Source: Henriciella marina DSM 19595
GTDB lineage: Bacteria > Pseudomonadota > Alphaproteobacteria > Caulobacterales > Hyphomonadaceae
Assembly: GCF_000376805.1 (NCBI RefSeq)
Contig: NZ_AQXT01000002.1
Coordinates: 1,736,001-1,800,000 of the forward strand
Reading direction: 5' to 3'
DNA: 64,000 nt
Shown: positions 2,732 to 9,320 of the stretch, piece after piece
How the letters are laid out: every line of letters begins with the position of its first letter
Position numbering within the stretch: the stretch's first letter is position 1
The notes under the pieces: generated by a model
What the model was told of the DNA's origin: nothing
What the model saw: only the letters and a program-made list of their open reading frames with translations
Database searches by the model: none
Position numbers and translations under genes: made by a program

Positions 2732-5287
2732 CTAAGCAGACACGGCTTCCAGCCGCTGTTTCGCCTTCGCTGTTTCAAAGCCGGAATAGCCGCTCGCGGC
2801 GACCTGGTCGCAGATGATGCGATAGACATCGACGCCTGCCACATACGCCATGAAGGTGCGCGGCTTGCCCGGCACATTTGCGCCAATGTACCAGCTGTTT
2901 GCCTGCGGGAAGAGCGTCTGGTTGGCCATCGCCTCATTGTGCTCGGCCCACTCTTCTTCGGCGGCCTCCGTCGGCTCGATCGTCTCCAGACCGCGCTCAC
3001 GCATCCAGCCGATACAGTCGCTCACCCAGTCCACATGCTGCTCGATGGAGACCATCATATTGGAAAGGACTGACGGGCTGGACGGCCCGGTAATGGTGAA
3101 GAGGTTCGGGAAACCGGCAATCGCGATGCCAAGATAGGTATGCGGCCCGTTCGCCCACTTATCTCTGAGGGCTGCGCCACCCTTGCCGCGAATATCTACC
3201 TTGAGCAACGCGCCGGTCATCGCATCGAAACCGGTCGCAAAGACGATCACATCGAAGTCTTCCTCGCCTGCACTGGTCTTGATGCCTTTCGGCGTGACCT
3301 TCTCCATCGGCGTCTTGCGAAGGTCCACAAGGGTCACATTATCGCGGTTGAACGTCTCATAAAAATTGGTGTCGAGACAGGGCCGCTTCGTGCCGAATGG
3401 ATAGGAATACGGCGTCAGCGTTTCAGCCAGTTCAGCGTCCTTCACCCGCGCCTTGATACGTTCGCGGATGAAGTCGGAGATGATCGCATTGGACTCCTCG
3501 TCCGCCAGAGCGTCGGCAAACTTGGTCGTCAGGCCCGTCAGGCCTTGCGTCCAGCCTTCTTCGAGACGCCGCTGGCGCTCTTCAGCCGGCACCATGGCCG
3601 CCGGCTCCAGCTCCCGTTCCGGCTTGGGGATCCCTGCGAAATTATACTTCTGCTCCTCGCGGAAGTCGCGGTAACGCTCTTTCATCTCGGACACTTCCGA
3701 GTTTGTCAGTGGCCGGTTGCCCGCCGGGAGCGAATAGGCCGGCGTGCGTTGATAGACGGTCAGCTGGCTGGCCTGTTCTGCAATGTGCGGAATGGCCTGA
3801 ATGGCTGAAGAGCCCGTGCCGATGACGGCAACTCTCTTGCCGGTAAAGTCGACACCCTCATGCGGCCAGCGCCCGGTGATATAGGTCGGGCCCTCAAAGC
3901 TTTCGGCGCCCTCGATATCGGGCTCCTTCGGCACTGAAAGACAGCCCGTCGCCATGATGAAATAGGTCGCTGAAATCGCCTCGCCCGTATCGGTATAGAT
4001 CGTCCAGCGCGATGTATCCTCGTCATAGACGGCGCGCGTCACGCGCGTCTCGAAAGTGATGTCCTTGCGAAGGTCATAGCGTTTGGCGACATGCTCGGCA
4101 TAGGACAGGATTTCCGGCTGCGTCGCATAGCGCTCGCTCCAGCTCCAGTCCTGCTCAAGTTCAGGGTCGAAGCCATAGGAATATCCTAGGCTCTCAATGT
4201 CGCAGCGCGCGCCCGGATAGCGGTTCCAGTACCAGGTCCCGCCGACTCCATCGCCCGCCTCGATGACACGTGTCTTGAGGCCCATCTCGCGCAGGCGCTT
4301 GAGCTGGTACATGCCGGCAAAGCCAGCGCCAACGACAACCACGTCTGCCTGCGAATAGCGGCCCAGATGCTGGTCGATCTGGTCGCCGACATAGTCGATG
4401 GCCTTTGCCTGCGCAGGAAGGAGCCCCGGCATGGCGAAGAAATTGTGCATCTGCCGGTCGAACTGTTTGAAGGTGACAGGCACGCCCGCCTTGCGCAGGG
4501 CATCGGCATAGGCCTCGCTCTCCTCGCGCAGGATGTCGTACTCGGCCGTCACCACGACAGCTGGCGGCAGGCCGGAGAGGTCATCTGCGTGCAGCGGCGA
4601 GGCGTCGACGTTCTTCCGGTCGGCCTCGTTCGGAGCGTAATGGTCCCAGAACCACTTCATCATCGGCGTATTGAGCAGCAGCTGGTTGTCCATGTTCGCG
4701 TAAGACGGCCGCGTCATGTCGCAATCGGTCACCGGATAGACCAGCATCTGCAGCGCAATCTTCGGCGCGCCAGCGGCCTTGGCTTTCTGGCAGACGATCG
4801 CGGCCAGATTGCCGCCCGCACTGTCGCCGCCCACCATGATTGGCAGGTCAGCGCCTCCCAGCGTCTTCAGGTTTGCCACCGTCCAGTTCAGCGCATCCCA
4901 GGCATCATTCGCGGCCGTGGGATAGCGATGCTCCGGCGCCTTGCGATAGTCGACCAGCAGCACGGTGCACGCCGTGCGCTCGGCCAGCTGGCGACCGACA
5001 CAGTCATACTGGTCGATATTCGACAGGACCCAGCCGCCGCCATGATAGAAGACCATCACGCCCTTCGGCTTGTCGACCGGGCGATGGATGCGCGCGCGGA
5101 TCTTCGCGCCGTCGCTGGCGGGGATCTGGATGTCGCGGGTCTCGGCCATCTCTGGCCCGTCAGGATAGGCGCTCGCCATGCCCTCGCCGATAAGACGCGC
5201 ATCCTGCGGGCTCATCTCATACATTGGCGGGCCTTCGGCAGACGCCAGCTGCGCGAGAAGAGCGGTGGTCGCGATATCCAGTTTCAT
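2732..5287 (-). CDS. Fused alpha/beta hydrolase (HSL type) and flavin-containing monooxygenase
   Basis: An 851-residue two-enzyme fusion. Residues about 1-310 are a hormone-sensitive-lipase-type esterase: oxyanion motif H82-G-G-G, nucleophile elbow GDSAGG with Ser156, Asp251 (EYDILRE) and His281 (MHNFF). Residues about 314-851 are a class B flavoprotein monooxygenase: FAD site GAGFAG (320-325), ATG box MATGC, and the NADPH site GTGSSA (490-495). Such pairs could oxidise a ketone to an ester and then hydrolyse it. Oddity: the Baeyer-Villiger fingerprint F-x-G-x3-H-x3-W reads FEGPTYITGRW here, with Ile470 in place of His. The ATG at 5287 follows GGGAGA; the 28 codons upstream of it look non-coding. 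An inverted-repeat element lies just upstream. Confidence 0.88.
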   Translation of the reverse strand: MKLDIATTALLAQLASAEGPPMYEMSPQDARLIGEGMASAYPDGPEMAETRDIQIPASDGAKIRARIHRPVDKPKGVMVFYHGGGWVLSNIDQYDCVGRQLAERTACTVLLVDYRKAPEHRYPTAANDAWDALNWTVANLKTLGGADLPIMVGGDSAGGNLAAIVCQKAKAAGAPKIALQMLVYPVTDCDMTRPSYANMDNQLLLNTPMMKWFWDHYAPNEADRKNVDASPLHADDLSGLPPAVVVTAEYDILREESEAYADALRKAGVPVTFKQFDRQMHNFFAMPGLLPAQAKAIDYVGDQIDQHLGRYSQADVVVVGAGFAGMYQLKRLREMGLKTRVIEAGDGVGGTWYWNRYPGARCDIESLGYSYGFDPELEQDWSWSERYATQPEILSYAEHVAKRYDLRKDITFETRVTRAVYDEDTSRWTIYTDTGEAISATYFIMATGCLSVPKEPDIEGAESFEGPTYITGRWPHEGVDFTGKRVAVIGTGSSAIQAIPHIAEQASQLTVYQRTPAYSLPAGNRPLTNSEVSEMKERYRDFREEQKYNFAGIPKPERELEPAAMVPAEERQRRLEEGWTQGLTGLTTKFADALADEESNAIISDFIRERIKARVKDAELAETLTPYSYPFGTKRPCLDTNFYETFNRDNVTLVDLRKTPMEKVTPKGIKTSAGEEDFDVIVFATGFDAMTGALLKVDIRGKGGAALRDKWANGPHTYLGIAIAGFPNLFTITGPSSPSVLSNMMVSIEQHVDWVSDCIGWMRERGLETIEPTEAAEEEWAEHNEAMANQTLFPQANSWYIGANVPGKPRTFMAYVAGVDVYRIICDQVAASGYSGFETAKAKQRLEAVSA

Positions 5288-5383
5288 GGCCTGTTTCTCC
5301 CTTGGTCTTTTGCGGCCATGCTCGCTCTTGGAACGCGCTATGGCAATCGCGAACGCAAGGGAAACCGGCAAGGAGAGTTCAGC

Positions 5384-5561
5384 GTCCAGGTCCTGTACTC
5401 ATAAATTTTGTTGCGGAGGCAATCGGATGAGCAAGACATGCAAGGAAAGCCGCGCAGGGCGGGCCGAGGCCCGTTCAAGCGGCTTGACACGGCGGGGCGC
5501 CGCTCAGCCGGTTGAGGCGTCCCGCCCGCCGCGGCAAAATTTATGAGTACAGGACCTAGAC
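5384..5561. repeat. 178-bp structured element with 27-bp terminal inverted repeats (MITE-like)
   Basis: Arms 5384-5410 and 5535-5561 are complementary over 27 bp with one mismatch (23 bp perfect, 5388-5410 against 5535-5557). Inside, 5450-5463 and 5521-5534 form a second pair (12 of 14 complementary), so the whole unit can fold into one long hairpin. The 124-nt core is GC-rich and carries no gene. The right arm supplies the last Val codon and TAG stop of the neighbouring 661-residue gene. No target-site duplication is obvious. It could be a miniature inverted-repeat transposable element or a strong bidirectional terminator; the long exact arms favour a mobile origin. Confidence 0.75.
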
Positions 5562-7541
5562 CCGGTCGCGGCCCCAGCTTTCCACGATCTTCTGGCGGAC
5601 CGCTTCTATTTCAACCTGGCTGACCGGCGCTTTTTCCAGCTGCTGATCGGCGTCTGTGTGGAAAATATAGAGGCGCGAGGCAAAATCACCGATCGGGACA
5701 GACGACTCCCCATAAAACTCGCCATTGCCCGTCGTCGAGACCAGAATGCCGTTGCCCCAGTCCTGTCCGCTGTCATTGTTCGGATTGAAGAAATAGACGC
5801 GAACGACACCGGACGGGTCACGCGCCACCCGGATAATCGCAATGGCATGCCAGCCGACAAATCGCGCGGCGCTGTCGGTCACCGCAATGCCGGCCGGGCT
5901 TGGATGGATCACGGGCTGGTTGCCATTATGGTCGGGATGGAAGGCGGCATAAAACCGGCGAATGAACCCGTTCGCATCGGTCAGTTTTCCGGTCGGCACA
6001 TCCACAATGATGTTGAAGGTGCGCGCGACCCACCAGCCATGCATCTCCGGATTGATCCACTCATGCGGGTCGCCTGCGCGCTTGGCGCACATCCGGCCCA
6101 TTTCGATATAGATGCGATCCAGATGCGGCGCGAGGATCGCCGAAACCGGGTCGACATCCAGAAGCTCGCCCTGCGCAAGACCGGCAGCGAGGCCTCCAGA
6201 CGAGATCGACTTGCCTTCAAACGGCATGCGCACTTCATTGTCGCGCGCTGCCCAGGTCACCAGCTGCAACAGATAATCCGGATCGGTATAGGACCACATC
6301 GCAATGGCGCGCGCGGCCTGGCAGGTCGGATTATTGCCCTGCCCGACGCCAAGCGGTTGGCCAAGCACGCTGATCACGCCTGCCAGAAGGCGCGTCTCAG
6401 CCGGAACATCCCCGCCATAGGTCGCAACAAGGCGCTGGCTGACAGCCGGCGCGAGCTCAAGACCGATCTGGCGCCAAAGCGCCGGCACCGTAGGCGGCAG
6501 GTGCAGGATGCCCCGCTCGAGCAAAAGGGAAAGGCCATAGATCGCCTGCGCCGTTCCGGGGCAGATCGCCTTTTCGATCAGTGCATGCGTCAGGTCGGCA
6601 TACATCCGGTAACCGAGACGGCCTGCGGCCGTCAGGCCAAGCACATCCGGGATCAGATCGGGGCGGTTTTGCCAGATATGGCGCAGCAGGACCGCATGAT
6701 AGGCCGAAACAAGCCCCGTATCGTGCATTGCCCGCGCCATACCGGCTGCTTCATGTCCAAGCGACTGGTCATCGAGCATCGAAAGCCTGCTCGCATAGGT
6801 CTCGAGGCCGGGGTCTTCGCGGGTTTCATTTGTTGGTGCGAACAGCGAACTGATCAGCCTGTCTGCGCCCCAGCCCGATTGCGCCTGTTCGCCGCCGCCC
6901 TCTTTCATCCAGAGCGACAGCTGCAGGATCATGGACCGGATGCGCCCGGTCTCGATCGGGCGCTGCGCCAGGATGCGCCAGATTTCAGCGATGACCGAAT
7001 CGAAGACCTGTCCATATCCAATGGTCTCGGCAATCTGCTTGAAGAGGCTTTGCAAGGCCGCTGTCCAGGCAGGGTCGGCCATGCGTGCGGCTTCAGTCCC
7101 CGCGCCAAAAAGACGGTCCAGATTGAGGCCGAGCACCCGCGCAAGAAAGTTTTTGGCTTCGTCTGCGGACACGGCCGGGTGCACCATCCGGCCACTGGCG
7201 ATAGCGAGAAAGCGAAGCTCGCTCAGCGTCTCCAGAACCAGCGAGGTCGGGTGACCGGATTCCAGCGTATGACGCACCAGAACGGGCTTTAGCTGCGCCG
7301 GATTATCCCAGTCGGTTCCGGTAAAAATGCCAGCGTCGTCGAGCGCCTCGATACGCTCGAAACACGCATCGATCCCGCCCGGCTGCTTCAGGACTTTCAC
7401 GCATTGCTCAATGGCCGGGCTTTGCTGGCGCAGCTTCATCTTCGCGCTCATCTTGGCAAGCCTGGTGATGGCAGCATCCAGCCGCTTGAGATGTGCAGCA
7501 TCGACGCCACCATCTGACTTGTTCGGATCGGCTCCGTTCAC
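5556..7541 (-). CDS. Large uncharacterised protein with C-terminal Cys-His-Asn (papain-like) signature
   Basis: A 661-residue cytoplasmic protein that I do not recognise as a named family. Residues 1 to about 390 are helical with no motif I know. The C-terminal part has Cys407 (NNPTCQAARAIAMW), His565 (FVGWHAIAIIRV) and Asn586 (VYFFNPNND): the order Cys-His-Asn with 21 residues from His to Asn is that of papain-fold peptidases and transglutaminase-like enzymes. Function as a peptidase or acyl-transferase is inference. A GTG at 7541 is chosen because AAGGGG lies 6 nt upstream; a TTG at 7571 is possible. It follows the ATP-grasp gene on the same strand after 76 nt, suggesting one operon. Confidence 0.72.
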   Translation of the reverse strand: MNGADPNKSDGGVDAAHLKRLDAAITRLAKMSAKMKLRQQSPAIEQCVKVLKQPGGIDACFERIEALDDAGIFTGTDWDNPAQLKPVLVRHTLESGHPTSLVLETLSELRFLAIASGRMVHPAVSADEAKNFLARVLGLNLDRLFGAGTEAARMADPAWTAALQSLFKQIAETIGYGQVFDSVIAEIWRILAQRPIETGRIRSMILQLSLWMKEGGGEQAQSGWGADRLISSLFAPTNETREDPGLETYASRLSMLDDQSLGHEAAGMARAMHDTGLVSAYHAVLLRHIWQNRPDLIPDVLGLTAAGRLGYRMYADLTHALIEKAICPGTAQAIYGLSLLLERGILHLPPTVPALWRQIGLELAPAVSQRLVATYGGDVPAETRLLAGVISVLGQPLGVGQGNNPTCQAARAIAMWSYTDPDYLLQLVTWAARDNEVRMPFEGKSISSGGLAAGLAQGELLDVDPVSAILAPHLDRIYIEMGRMCAKRAGDPHEWINPEMHGWWVARTFNIIVDVPTGKLTDANGFIRRFYAAFHPDHNGNQPVIHPSPAGIAVTDSAARFVGWHAIAIIRVARDPSGVVRVYFFNPNNDSGQDWGNGILVSTTGNGEFYGESSVPIGDFASRLYIFHTDADQQLEKAPVSQVEIEAVRQKIVESWGRDRV

Positions 7542-7617
7542 GGCGCACCCCTTTGATTCGCCTGTTTGCAAGGCGAGCCTAGTAAAGACTGAATTGCATG
7601 ACTACCGGCGCGAACGC

Positions 7618-8844
7618 CTAGACGTAGAAGTCGACGTCTTCCTGCGCGGCTAGAAGGTCACGCATCGTTTCGCCATCCTCGCCGTGGAAGTAGACAAGGC
7701 CCCAATGATTGCCGAAGGCAGAGCGTTTGGCGACCTTGGTTTCCATCGGTTCGCTGAGCTCATGCCAGTCGAAATAGGGGTGATCTTCTGTCTCTTTCGG
7801 GATTTCGAGCCGTGAGACGACCTGGTTGCGCGGATAGACGCCGAAACAGCCAGCATAGCCATCGGCATCCTCGACCGGAGTCGGGAAGAACGCCTCGATC
7901 TCTTCCTCGGTGGTCTTCGGATCGAACATCATGACCATGCCCTGATAGGCATTGAAGCCATAGACCCGCTCAAGCAGCTCGAAAACCTTGAAGCCCGGCG
8001 GACGATACGCGACCTCGCCAAAGTACATGACATCATCCGGCCCGATAAAGTATTCCGGGTGGATAAAGCCGAACTTGATGTCGAACGTCTTGATCAGCTT
8101 CTCGATCTCGGCCGTCACCTTGTCGCGCATGGCTTCGAGCTCGGGGCTCGCTGGCACGAAGACCGAGTAGCCAAGCCGGACATATTCAGAAATGTTCAGG
8201 AAGCGGATCTTGCCGTCATGGATCCAGGCCTCGGCCGCATATTCCCAGCCATCAAGATGGCTTTCCATAAGCACAGGAAAATCGGTGTCGGGGATAAGAT
8301 CGACATCCTCGACATTCCTGACAACCCGGTGGCCCATACAGCCAGCGAGGTCGAACGCCTTGATGTGGATCGGGTCGTTGGCATCGCCTTCCTGCTTCAG
8401 CAGGGTCTGGTTCACACGTTTGAGGAAGCGCTCGACATCACCGCGGTCATGAGCCTCTTCGAAAATCCCGACGCGGATACCGCCAAGCTGGGCCCGGCGC
8501 TTCATCAGCGACTTGTCGCGAAACAGCATGGACTGGCCAAGCAGCCGCGGATTGTCGAGCAGGACAGCGTTGACAGCGCCTGCCCATTCAACCGTCTCCT
8601 CATAAAGCGGGACGGCGACATCGACGCCCTCATCCTTGAGCATCTGCGCGATCTCGAAGGAGTTCTCGTTCAACCGCTCGAAATTCCACGACATGAAGGG
8701 AATATCGTTCTTCTCGGCATAGTCTCTCGCCCAGCTTGGGGCCACCACGATGTAGCGGCGATCAAACTTCTCCATCGCGTCGATCGCGTTGAGGCTCCAG
8801 CCGAGGAGCGCAATATAGCCTTTGTCGGGATTATAATCAGTCAT
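7618..8844 (-). CDS. ATP-grasp family ligase
   Basis: A 408-residue ATP-grasp enzyme. It begins with a short Rossmann-like preATP domain (YIALLGWSLNAID). The middle domain has LGQSMLFRDKSLMKRRA and FPVLMESHLDGWEYAAEAWIHDG, the part that grips ATP. The metal-binding end is FGFIHPEYFIGPDDVMYFGEVAYRPPG, where Glu plus the RPPG loop match the E-x-N-x-RP-G element, with Tyr in place of the usual Asn. Such enzymes join a carboxylate to an amine or thiol via an acyl-phosphate; the substrate is unknown. The ATG at 8844 has GGAGG upstream. It is the first gene of the two-gene unit with the Cys-His-Asn protein. Confidence 0.82.
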   Translation of the reverse strand: MTDYNPDKGYIALLGWSLNAIDAMEKFDRRYIVVAPSWARDYAEKNDIPFMSWNFERLNENSFEIAQMLKDEGVDVAVPLYEETVEWAGAVNAVLLDNPRLLGQSMLFRDKSLMKRRAQLGGIRVGIFEEAHDRGDVERFLKRVNQTLLKQEGDANDPIHIKAFDLAGCMGHRVVRNVEDVDLIPDTDFPVLMESHLDGWEYAAEAWIHDGKIRFLNISEYVRLGYSVFVPASPELEAMRDKVTAEIEKLIKTFDIKFGFIHPEYFIGPDDVMYFGEVAYRPPGFKVFELLERVYGFNAYQGMVMMFDPKTTEEEIEAFFPTPVEDADGYAGCFGVYPRNQVVSRLEIPKETEDHPYFDWHELSEPMETKVAKRSAFGNHWGLVYFHGEDGETMRDLLAAQEDVDFYV

Positions 8845-9146
8845 TGGACCTCCATGGGGTCGTGTCGGCATTGAACGGTTAACTTGAAACTGAACTCAGG
8901 GTCAGGCTGCTTGTTCCGGTCCGGCGCGCTTTGGCGCAGCCAGATACAGGCAAACCGGTCCGGCACGTGTCTCGCGGCCGGGCAGTTCTGAATTCTTCAA
9001 ATGCATGTAGACTTCGAGCTAGGCGGGCAAGGCACCAAGTCAATCGCCAGCCCGCGCTGAAACCGGCTCGTAAGGGGGACTTTTCGGAACCATTGGCCCG
9101 CCCTGCCGCTTACCCTTCAGCAATCACAGACAGTGGACCCCTGACC
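8845..9146. other. 302-bp divergent intergenic region
   Basis: This separates the ATP-grasp gene (minus) from the small membrane peptide (plus). It holds two CCGGTCCGGC copies (near 8916 and 8959) and an EcfG-like promoter at its right end. An open frame on the plus strand runs through part of it but looks non-coding. No RNA gene is seen. Confidence 0.5.
9086..9110 (+). promoter_or_regulatory. EcfG-type general-stress promoter (one mismatch)
   Basis: GGAAC at 9086-9090, 16 bp, then CGCT at 9107-9110, against the alphaproteobacterial EcfG consensus GGAAC-N16/17-CGTT. It lies 36 bp before the ATG of the DUF1328 peptide, a family often stress-induced. Confidence 0.5.
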
Positions 9147-9320
9147 ATGATCAAACTCGCCTTCGTCTTTCTCATCATCGCGCTGATCGCAGGCCTGCTT
9201 GGCCTCACCGGCATTGCCGGCGTCGCCGTCGACATCGCCATGTTCCTCTTTATCGCCGCGCTGGTGATCTTTGCAGTGCTGCTCATCCTCGGCCTCACCG
9301 TCTTCAAGAAGGTGACCTAG
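9147..9320 (+). CDS. DUF1328/UPF0391 small membrane protein
   Basis: A 57-residue peptide with two membrane segments: IKLAFVFLIIALIAGLLGL and, after the loop TGIAGVAVDIA, MFLFIAALVIFAVLLILGL, ending in the short basic tail TVFKKVT. Length and the GxTGIAGxAxxIA loop are those of the YtjA/DUF1328 family of inner-membrane peptides, whose exact job is unknown. The frame stays open far upstream but that part is GC-rich noise, so the ATG at 9147 is used. An EcfG-like promoter precedes it. Its stop TAG shares the CTAG at 9317-9320 with the stop of the opposing nucleotidase gene. Confidence 0.85.
   Translation: MIKLAFVFLIIALIAGLLGLTGIAGVAVDIAMFLFIAALVIFAVLLILGLTVFKKVT

Follow-up and report, generated by a model that had tools for sequence, protein, structure and literature searches.

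Organisation of the locus

We analysed a 64,000-nucleotide stretch of the Henriciella marina DSM 19595 genome (contig NZ_AQXT01000002.1, positions 1,736,001 to 1,800,000; hereafter the window) for a two-gene unit on its minus strand, which pairs an ATP-grasp ligase with a large, putatively papain-like protein. The first gene of the unit (7618..8844) encodes the 408 amino acid ligase from an ATG at 8844, and the second (5556..7541) encodes a 661 amino acid Cys-His-Asn protein, hereafter the Cys protein, from a GTG at 7541-7539. Both open reading frames (ORFs) and the spacer of 76 nucleotides (nt) between them (7542..7617) were found where the initial annotation had placed them. Purine-rich ribosome-binding sequences precede both starts, GGAGGT for the ligase and AAAGGGG for the Cys gene, and alternative longer frames extend the ligase gene to 8871 (ATG) and the Cys gene to 7571 (TTG). 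Crude scans revealed no terminator-like site in the spacer and no sigma-70-like promoter in 5380-9150.

Codon reading confirmed the residues of the Cys protein singled out earlier, Cys407 (6321..6323), His565 (5847..5849) and Asn586 (5784..5786), in papain order and with a His-Asn spacing of 21 (586-565). Gln401 (6339..6341) sits six residues N-terminal of Cys407, the spacing of Gln19 and Cys25 in papain. Cys407 is the candidate nucleophile and Gln401 the candidate oxyanion-hole residue. In an AlphaFold2 model these residues fall within a predicted papain-like domain (residues ~396-632; 5646..6356) preceded by an all-alpha part (residues 15-394; 6360..7499), with Cys407 starting helix 407-419, His565 inside strand 562-574 and Asn586 directly after strand 580-585.

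Abutting the Cys gene at its 3' end, and overlapping the TAG stop, is a 178-base-pair (bp) element with inverted ends (5385-5562). Two further, longer copies of about 290 bp are present in the same genome (G000:C2 3094014-3094303 and 3266698-3266984), which suggests a small transposable element of the non-autonomous kind.

The two genes are inherited together

A scan of bacterial species genomes in GTDB yielded at least 569 confirmed relatives of the Cys protein among 596 pattern matches, and the wider survey of loci was made on the best 80 of these. They come from Henriciella, Rhodospirillales, Halomonadaceae, Marinobacter, Wenzhouxiangella, Alcanivorax, Ectothiorhodospiraceae, Pseudonocardia, Rhodococcus, Williamsia, Hoyosella, Streptomyces and others, the closest named locus being that of Henriciella barbarensis (Cys protein 96 %). 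The ligase lies directly upstream on the same strand in 78 of the 80 loci, cut by a contig end in L027, L052 and L067, and elsewhere in the genome in the other two (L041 and L087).

Joint presence was followed in three sets of genomes. Both proteins occur in the same nine of 101 relatives, all in the genus of the window (at least 29 genomes), and in the same four of 385 genomes of the class, the window's own included. Within the Halomonadaceae, the family of Halomonas beimenensis, the Cys protein was found in 60 of 101 genomes and the ligase in the same 60. By coordinates 57 of these 60 pairs lie within 400 nt, the two genes being on different contigs or more than 1 Mb apart in G543, G565 and G581. 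Thirteen of the 60 genomes carry two or three Cys copies, some placed just before a ligase of a second type (L134 and L135, and also L108 from another halomonad) and others standing alone. Matches were sparser in samples of the Gammaproteobacteria (8/274 genomes) and the actinobacterial phylum (3/296), centre genomes included; among the 12 loci from these samples the second copy of G756 (L117) lacks a nearby ligase, and in L119 the Cys gene and ligase are convergent. The identity matrices of the two families are correlated (r 0.90, 76 loci), with none of 999 permutations reaching as high a value.

The conserved pairing that the initial annotation proposed to survey is borne out by the upstream ligase in the surveyed loci and by joint presence in three genome sets: the genes are co-inherited and, with few exceptions, stand side by side. 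Either gene can also occur alone, which would suit two genes linked by history only and acting in different processes. We regard this as improbable, however, given the joint presence and absence in 101, 385 and 101 genomes and the retention of both genes where they are unlinked (L041, L087, G543, G565 and G581).

No phage matched the Cys protein, none of eight pattern stretches from IMG/VR was confirmed, and the one plasmid record carrying the Cys gene, from Halomonas, carries the ligase too; these results argue against a phage or plasmid system. Neither protein matched the PADLOC anti-phage defence models at E ≤ 1.

In a tree seven of eight actinobacterial rows cluster beside the main gammaproteobacterial group, with a long-branched Hoyosella row apart. 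The pair on a contig labelled Phormidium willei (L034) groups with a Rhodospirillaceae metagenome-assembled genome with support of 100/99, and is probably contamination in the Phormidium willei assembly. The ligase of G494 (G494:C10:753427-754592), one of the 60 Halomonadaceae genomes with both proteins, is in two pieces with in-frame stops next to a Cys gene without stops, reflecting either decay or sequencing error.

Conservation and predicted structure of the two proteins

Cys407, His565 and Asn586 are invariant in all eight rows of one genus, window included, and together with Gln401, Asn588 and Asp590 in all 102 rows of a wider alignment reaching down to 43-45 % identity. Several of the 102 rows are the same gene fetched twice, and L009 and L010, one gene split over two contigs of G004, are excluded. 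Apart from gaps 79 columns of this alignment are invariant, 57 of them in residues 376-661 and 22 in residues 1-375. All 14 additional copies around loci of the Halomonadaceae, of which ten lack a ligase in the stretch, likewise keep Gln401, Cys407, His565 and Asn586. Because these residues are invariant in 8/8, 102/102 and 14/14 copies, the Cys-His-Asn arrangement is not a chance one. The expectation in the initial annotation that homologues would retain both the three residues and the ATP-grasp neighbour held for the residues, no homologue without them having been seen, but only in part for the neighbour, some copies (L117 and L137-L146) having no adjacent ligase.

Database searches gave little guide to the family. 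The Cys protein had no match in Pfam, NCBIfam or PADLOC at E ≤ 1 and reached the cut-off of no named papain-like family in Pfam or NCBIfam, while 40 family members scanned singly against Pfam gave stray weak matches only. Searches of the PDB by sequence and by profile returned weak, unrelated matches, and neither these nor Pfam revealed sequence similarity to papain-like peptidases. No signal sequence was seen by eye.

Two AlphaFold2 models agree in placing the Cys at or near a helix start, the His on a strand and the Asn after the next strand, although the helix start at Cys407 differs by two residues between them and the segments flanking Cys407 and His565 (398-405 and 555-562) have a predicted local distance difference test score (pLDDT) below 50. 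The predicted papain-like domain matches the fold of solved papain-like members, and most of the listed structural matches are peptidases. Ahead of it the helical part, which the initial annotation could not place, is recovered as predicted helices and gives weak HEAT/ARM-like partial structural matches of low significance, mostly over residues 65-235. The predicted models, the structural matches and the conserved Gln-Cys-His-Asn set together support the papain-like fold proposed earlier, and hence assignment of the Cys protein to the papain-like superfamily with a candidate Gln-Cys-His-Asn catalytic set. The initial annotation had called the protein peptidase or transglutaminase-like; the first half of that label agrees with the predominance of peptidases among the listed matches, whereas Pfam gives no transglutaminase match. 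With a Gln-Cys-His-Asn set, an amidase or peptidase is more likely than a transglutaminase.

Papain-like folds also include acyltransferases, and phytochelatin synthase (6th5) is among the listed structural matches. Together with the tight gene pairing this raises the possibility of a biosynthetic pair, in which the Cys protein would be a condensing acyltransferase building a metabolite from the ligase product rather than an amidase undoing it, on the model of butirosin synthesis, where BtrH acts after BtrJ. The prevalence of peptidases among the listed matches weighs against it, as does the third catalytic residue: Asn is typical of C1, C2 and C47 peptidases, while Asp is usual in transferases.

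Orthologues of the ligase in eight other congeners are 85-98 % identical and mean identity across classes and phyla is 74-84 %. PF13535 matches 13 of 13 diverse members of the family at E ≤ 1 (best E 3.4e-6), which bears out the earlier ATP-grasp assignment of 7618..8844, although the window ligase itself scores 14.5 bits against a cut-off of 27. A family profile searched against the PDB matched 4dim best (E 1.7e-4; labelled phosphoribosylglycinamide synthetase), followed by the L-amino acid ligases 3vot (E 0.0013) and 4wd3 (E 0.0054), and Glu277 and Arg281 of the ligase align with Glu and Arg in all three. Judged from sequence, the ligase belongs to the ATP-grasp proteins, is probably a distant relative of the L-amino acid ligases, and is most likely a carboxylate-amine ligase of some kind.

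Both the weak resemblance of the helical part to HEAT/ARM scaffolds and the high conservation of the ligase, expected of an enzyme that binds a fixed macromolecule, would suit a protein-tagging cycle in which an amino acid attached to a host protein by the ligase is taken off again by the Cys protein under the guidance of its helical part. We nevertheless consider such a cycle unlikely. Two of the three best PDB matches of the ligase (3vot and 4wd3) act on free amino acids, no fixed protein neighbour was seen in the 80 loci, and a core protein would be an unexpected target for a unit so patchily distributed within the genus (9 of at least 29 genomes).

Genomic context, proposed function and known systems

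Neighbouring genes were surveyed in all 80 loci by crude ORF calling. The only other genes found repeatedly in distant genera are common ones such as ABC-transporter ATPases. These, identified on inspection, form the widest neighbour cluster (6 of 25 taxon labels, the next spanning four); such recurrent neighbours were taken as common genes and rejected as partners. Small ORFs of 20-100 amino acids were sought in 78 loci, on either strand, in the spacer and up to 600 nt from the unit. They formed 109 BLAST similarity clusters, of which 22 span two of 25 taxon labels, joining near relatives, and none spans more, although the search would miss a precursor encoded at a greater distance or one beyond the reach of BLAST. 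The initial remark that no small precursor peptide was obvious therefore holds near the unit. Ligases and papain-like peptidases both occur in ribosomal-peptide clusters, but given that no small-ORF cluster is widely shared, a maturation pair acting on the product of a small precursor gene is very improbable here.

Riboswitches upstream of the ligase were sought with Rfam at the gathering threshold in 17 ligase-centred loci, and only one signal recognition particle (SRP) RNA and one tRNA were found. In Halomonas beimenensis an SRP RNA gene lies just upstream of the unit (L104:1154-1250, minus strand), and sequence similar to SRP RNA is present in 36 of the 80 loci, all Halomonadaceae. Downstream of the unit in the window, a gene at 2732-5371 (minus strand) encodes a fusion of an alpha/beta-hydrolase (PF07859) with a flavin monooxygenase-like part (PF13738, PF00743) that we read as of Baeyer-Villiger type.

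Certain loci offer hints of a substrate. In the gammaproteobacterial locus L118 (L118:393-3836) the Cys gene and the ligase are separated by a gene for a PF00850 (histone-deacetylase-type) amidohydrolase; its relatives are the next gene after the Cys gene in L116 and L098, and five Halomonadaceae loci have weaker relatives at a distance of kilobases. We also examined lone copies in 20 Halomonadaceae stretches. Lone second ligases are found near a BCCT transporter in L127 and L129, and near genes resembling betaine catabolism, by eye, in L128. Lone Cys paralogues in L139, L142, L144, L145 and L146 are divergent from an OpuAC-type transporter set, MmgE/PrpD and a carbon-nitrogen hydrolase; these neighbours, whose families were checked in L144, share synteny and represent about one event. 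Two further lone copies with similar genes (L141 and L143) lie near flavin adenine dinucleotide (FAD) oxidoreductases, a Na+/H+ antiporter-family gene and a PF00850 protein. These oxidoreductases were rejected as gamma-glutamylputrescine oxidases, NCBIfam placing them, below its cut-off, nearest to L-pipecolate oxidase and an aminophosphonate oxidoreductase, and a putrescine-importer label near lone copies was likewise rejected, the gene being nearest to BcaP (NCBIfam). The PF00850 neighbours and the context of lone copies are hints only, the latter weak because the copies are few, partly one synteny block, and because betaine transporters are common in Halomonadaceae genomes. Transporters beside some lone copies would suit a biosynthetic pair, but no acceptor-making gene recurs near the 80 loci, and weighing this with the structural evidence we consider a condensing acyltransferase possible but doubtful.

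The best explanation, to which we would give an even chance, is a stand-alone two-enzyme amide-bond module that makes an amide and breaks or transfers it. The ligase would use ATP to activate a carboxylate, of an amino acid or similar compound, as an acyl phosphate and would join it to an amine, yielding a compound of dipeptide-like or amino acid-amine type. Through a Cys407 thioester, the papain-like partner would hydrolyse the amide or pass the acyl group to a second acceptor, with the helical part probably docking the substrate or the ligase. As substrate we consider a small metabolite likeliest, perhaps a conjugate of an amine or of a compatible solute. Genomes with one ligase and several Cys copies fit such a module if one product is read or removed by more than one partner. 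Because it comprises only two genes the unit is directly testable.

The pair was not found described in a literature search judged by titles and abstract starts, and the Cys family is not by name among those in the section of PMC10318531 on newly identified families, whose full 21 are in its supplement. From papain-like peptidases such as the calpain core (C2), staphopain (C47) and the papain family (C1) the window protein differs by its helical N-terminal part and its ATP-grasp partner. The L-amino acid ligases BL00235 (3vot) and 4wd3 resemble the window ligase in a profile match over the C-terminal ATP-grasp part, including the aligned Glu277 and Arg281, but the relation is distant, the window ligase falling under the Pfam cut-off, and neither is known to depend on a papain-like partner.

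A number of systems resemble the unit as a whole. Glutathionylspermidine synthetase/amidase likewise combines an ATP-grasp amide ligase with a papain-like amidase. There the two are one fused protein with CHAP and GSP_synth domains, neither of which was found in either protein family by Pfam scans. ATP-grasp amidoligase clusters with transglutaminase or Alpha-E partners, reportedly described by Iyer et al. in 2009, are alike in concept, in that a thiol enzyme and a helical part accompany the ligase, although neither protein of our pair matched the Alpha-E or transglutaminase-core Pfam domains. BtrJ and BtrH are an ATP-grasp ligase and a papain-like acyltransferase in one pathway, which uses a carrier protein and is encoded in a large cluster. 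BtrH is described in a passage of PMC2922099 as having a papain-like fold. This system shares with ours the ligase and the papain-like enzyme but differs in its carrier protein, none having been noticed at this unit.

Tubulin tyrosine ligase and vasohibin are an ATP-grasp writer and a papain-like eraser. Passages of PMC10318531 list vasohibin as papain-like, with a Cys-His-Ser triad. This eukaryotic system modifies a protein, and its Cys-His-Ser differs from the Cys-His-Asn seen here. An independently evolved bacterial equivalent, in which the ligase would attach an amino acid or small amine to one particular cell protein for a papain-like enzyme with a helical scaffold to remove, is a long shot; if true, it would provide a bacterial counterpart of this writer and eraser.

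The Cys family is of interest in its own right, comprising at least 569 members with no Pfam or NCBIfam model, a full papain-type set and a tie to one ligase, and its occurrence in genera such as Halomonas, Marinobacter, Rhodococcus and Pseudonocardia points to a metabolite or a modification new to cultivable bacteria. Both folds are familiar, and ligase-amidase pairs have precedents in glutathionylspermidine metabolism and tubulin tyrosination; the present pair is probably an undescribed addition to them.

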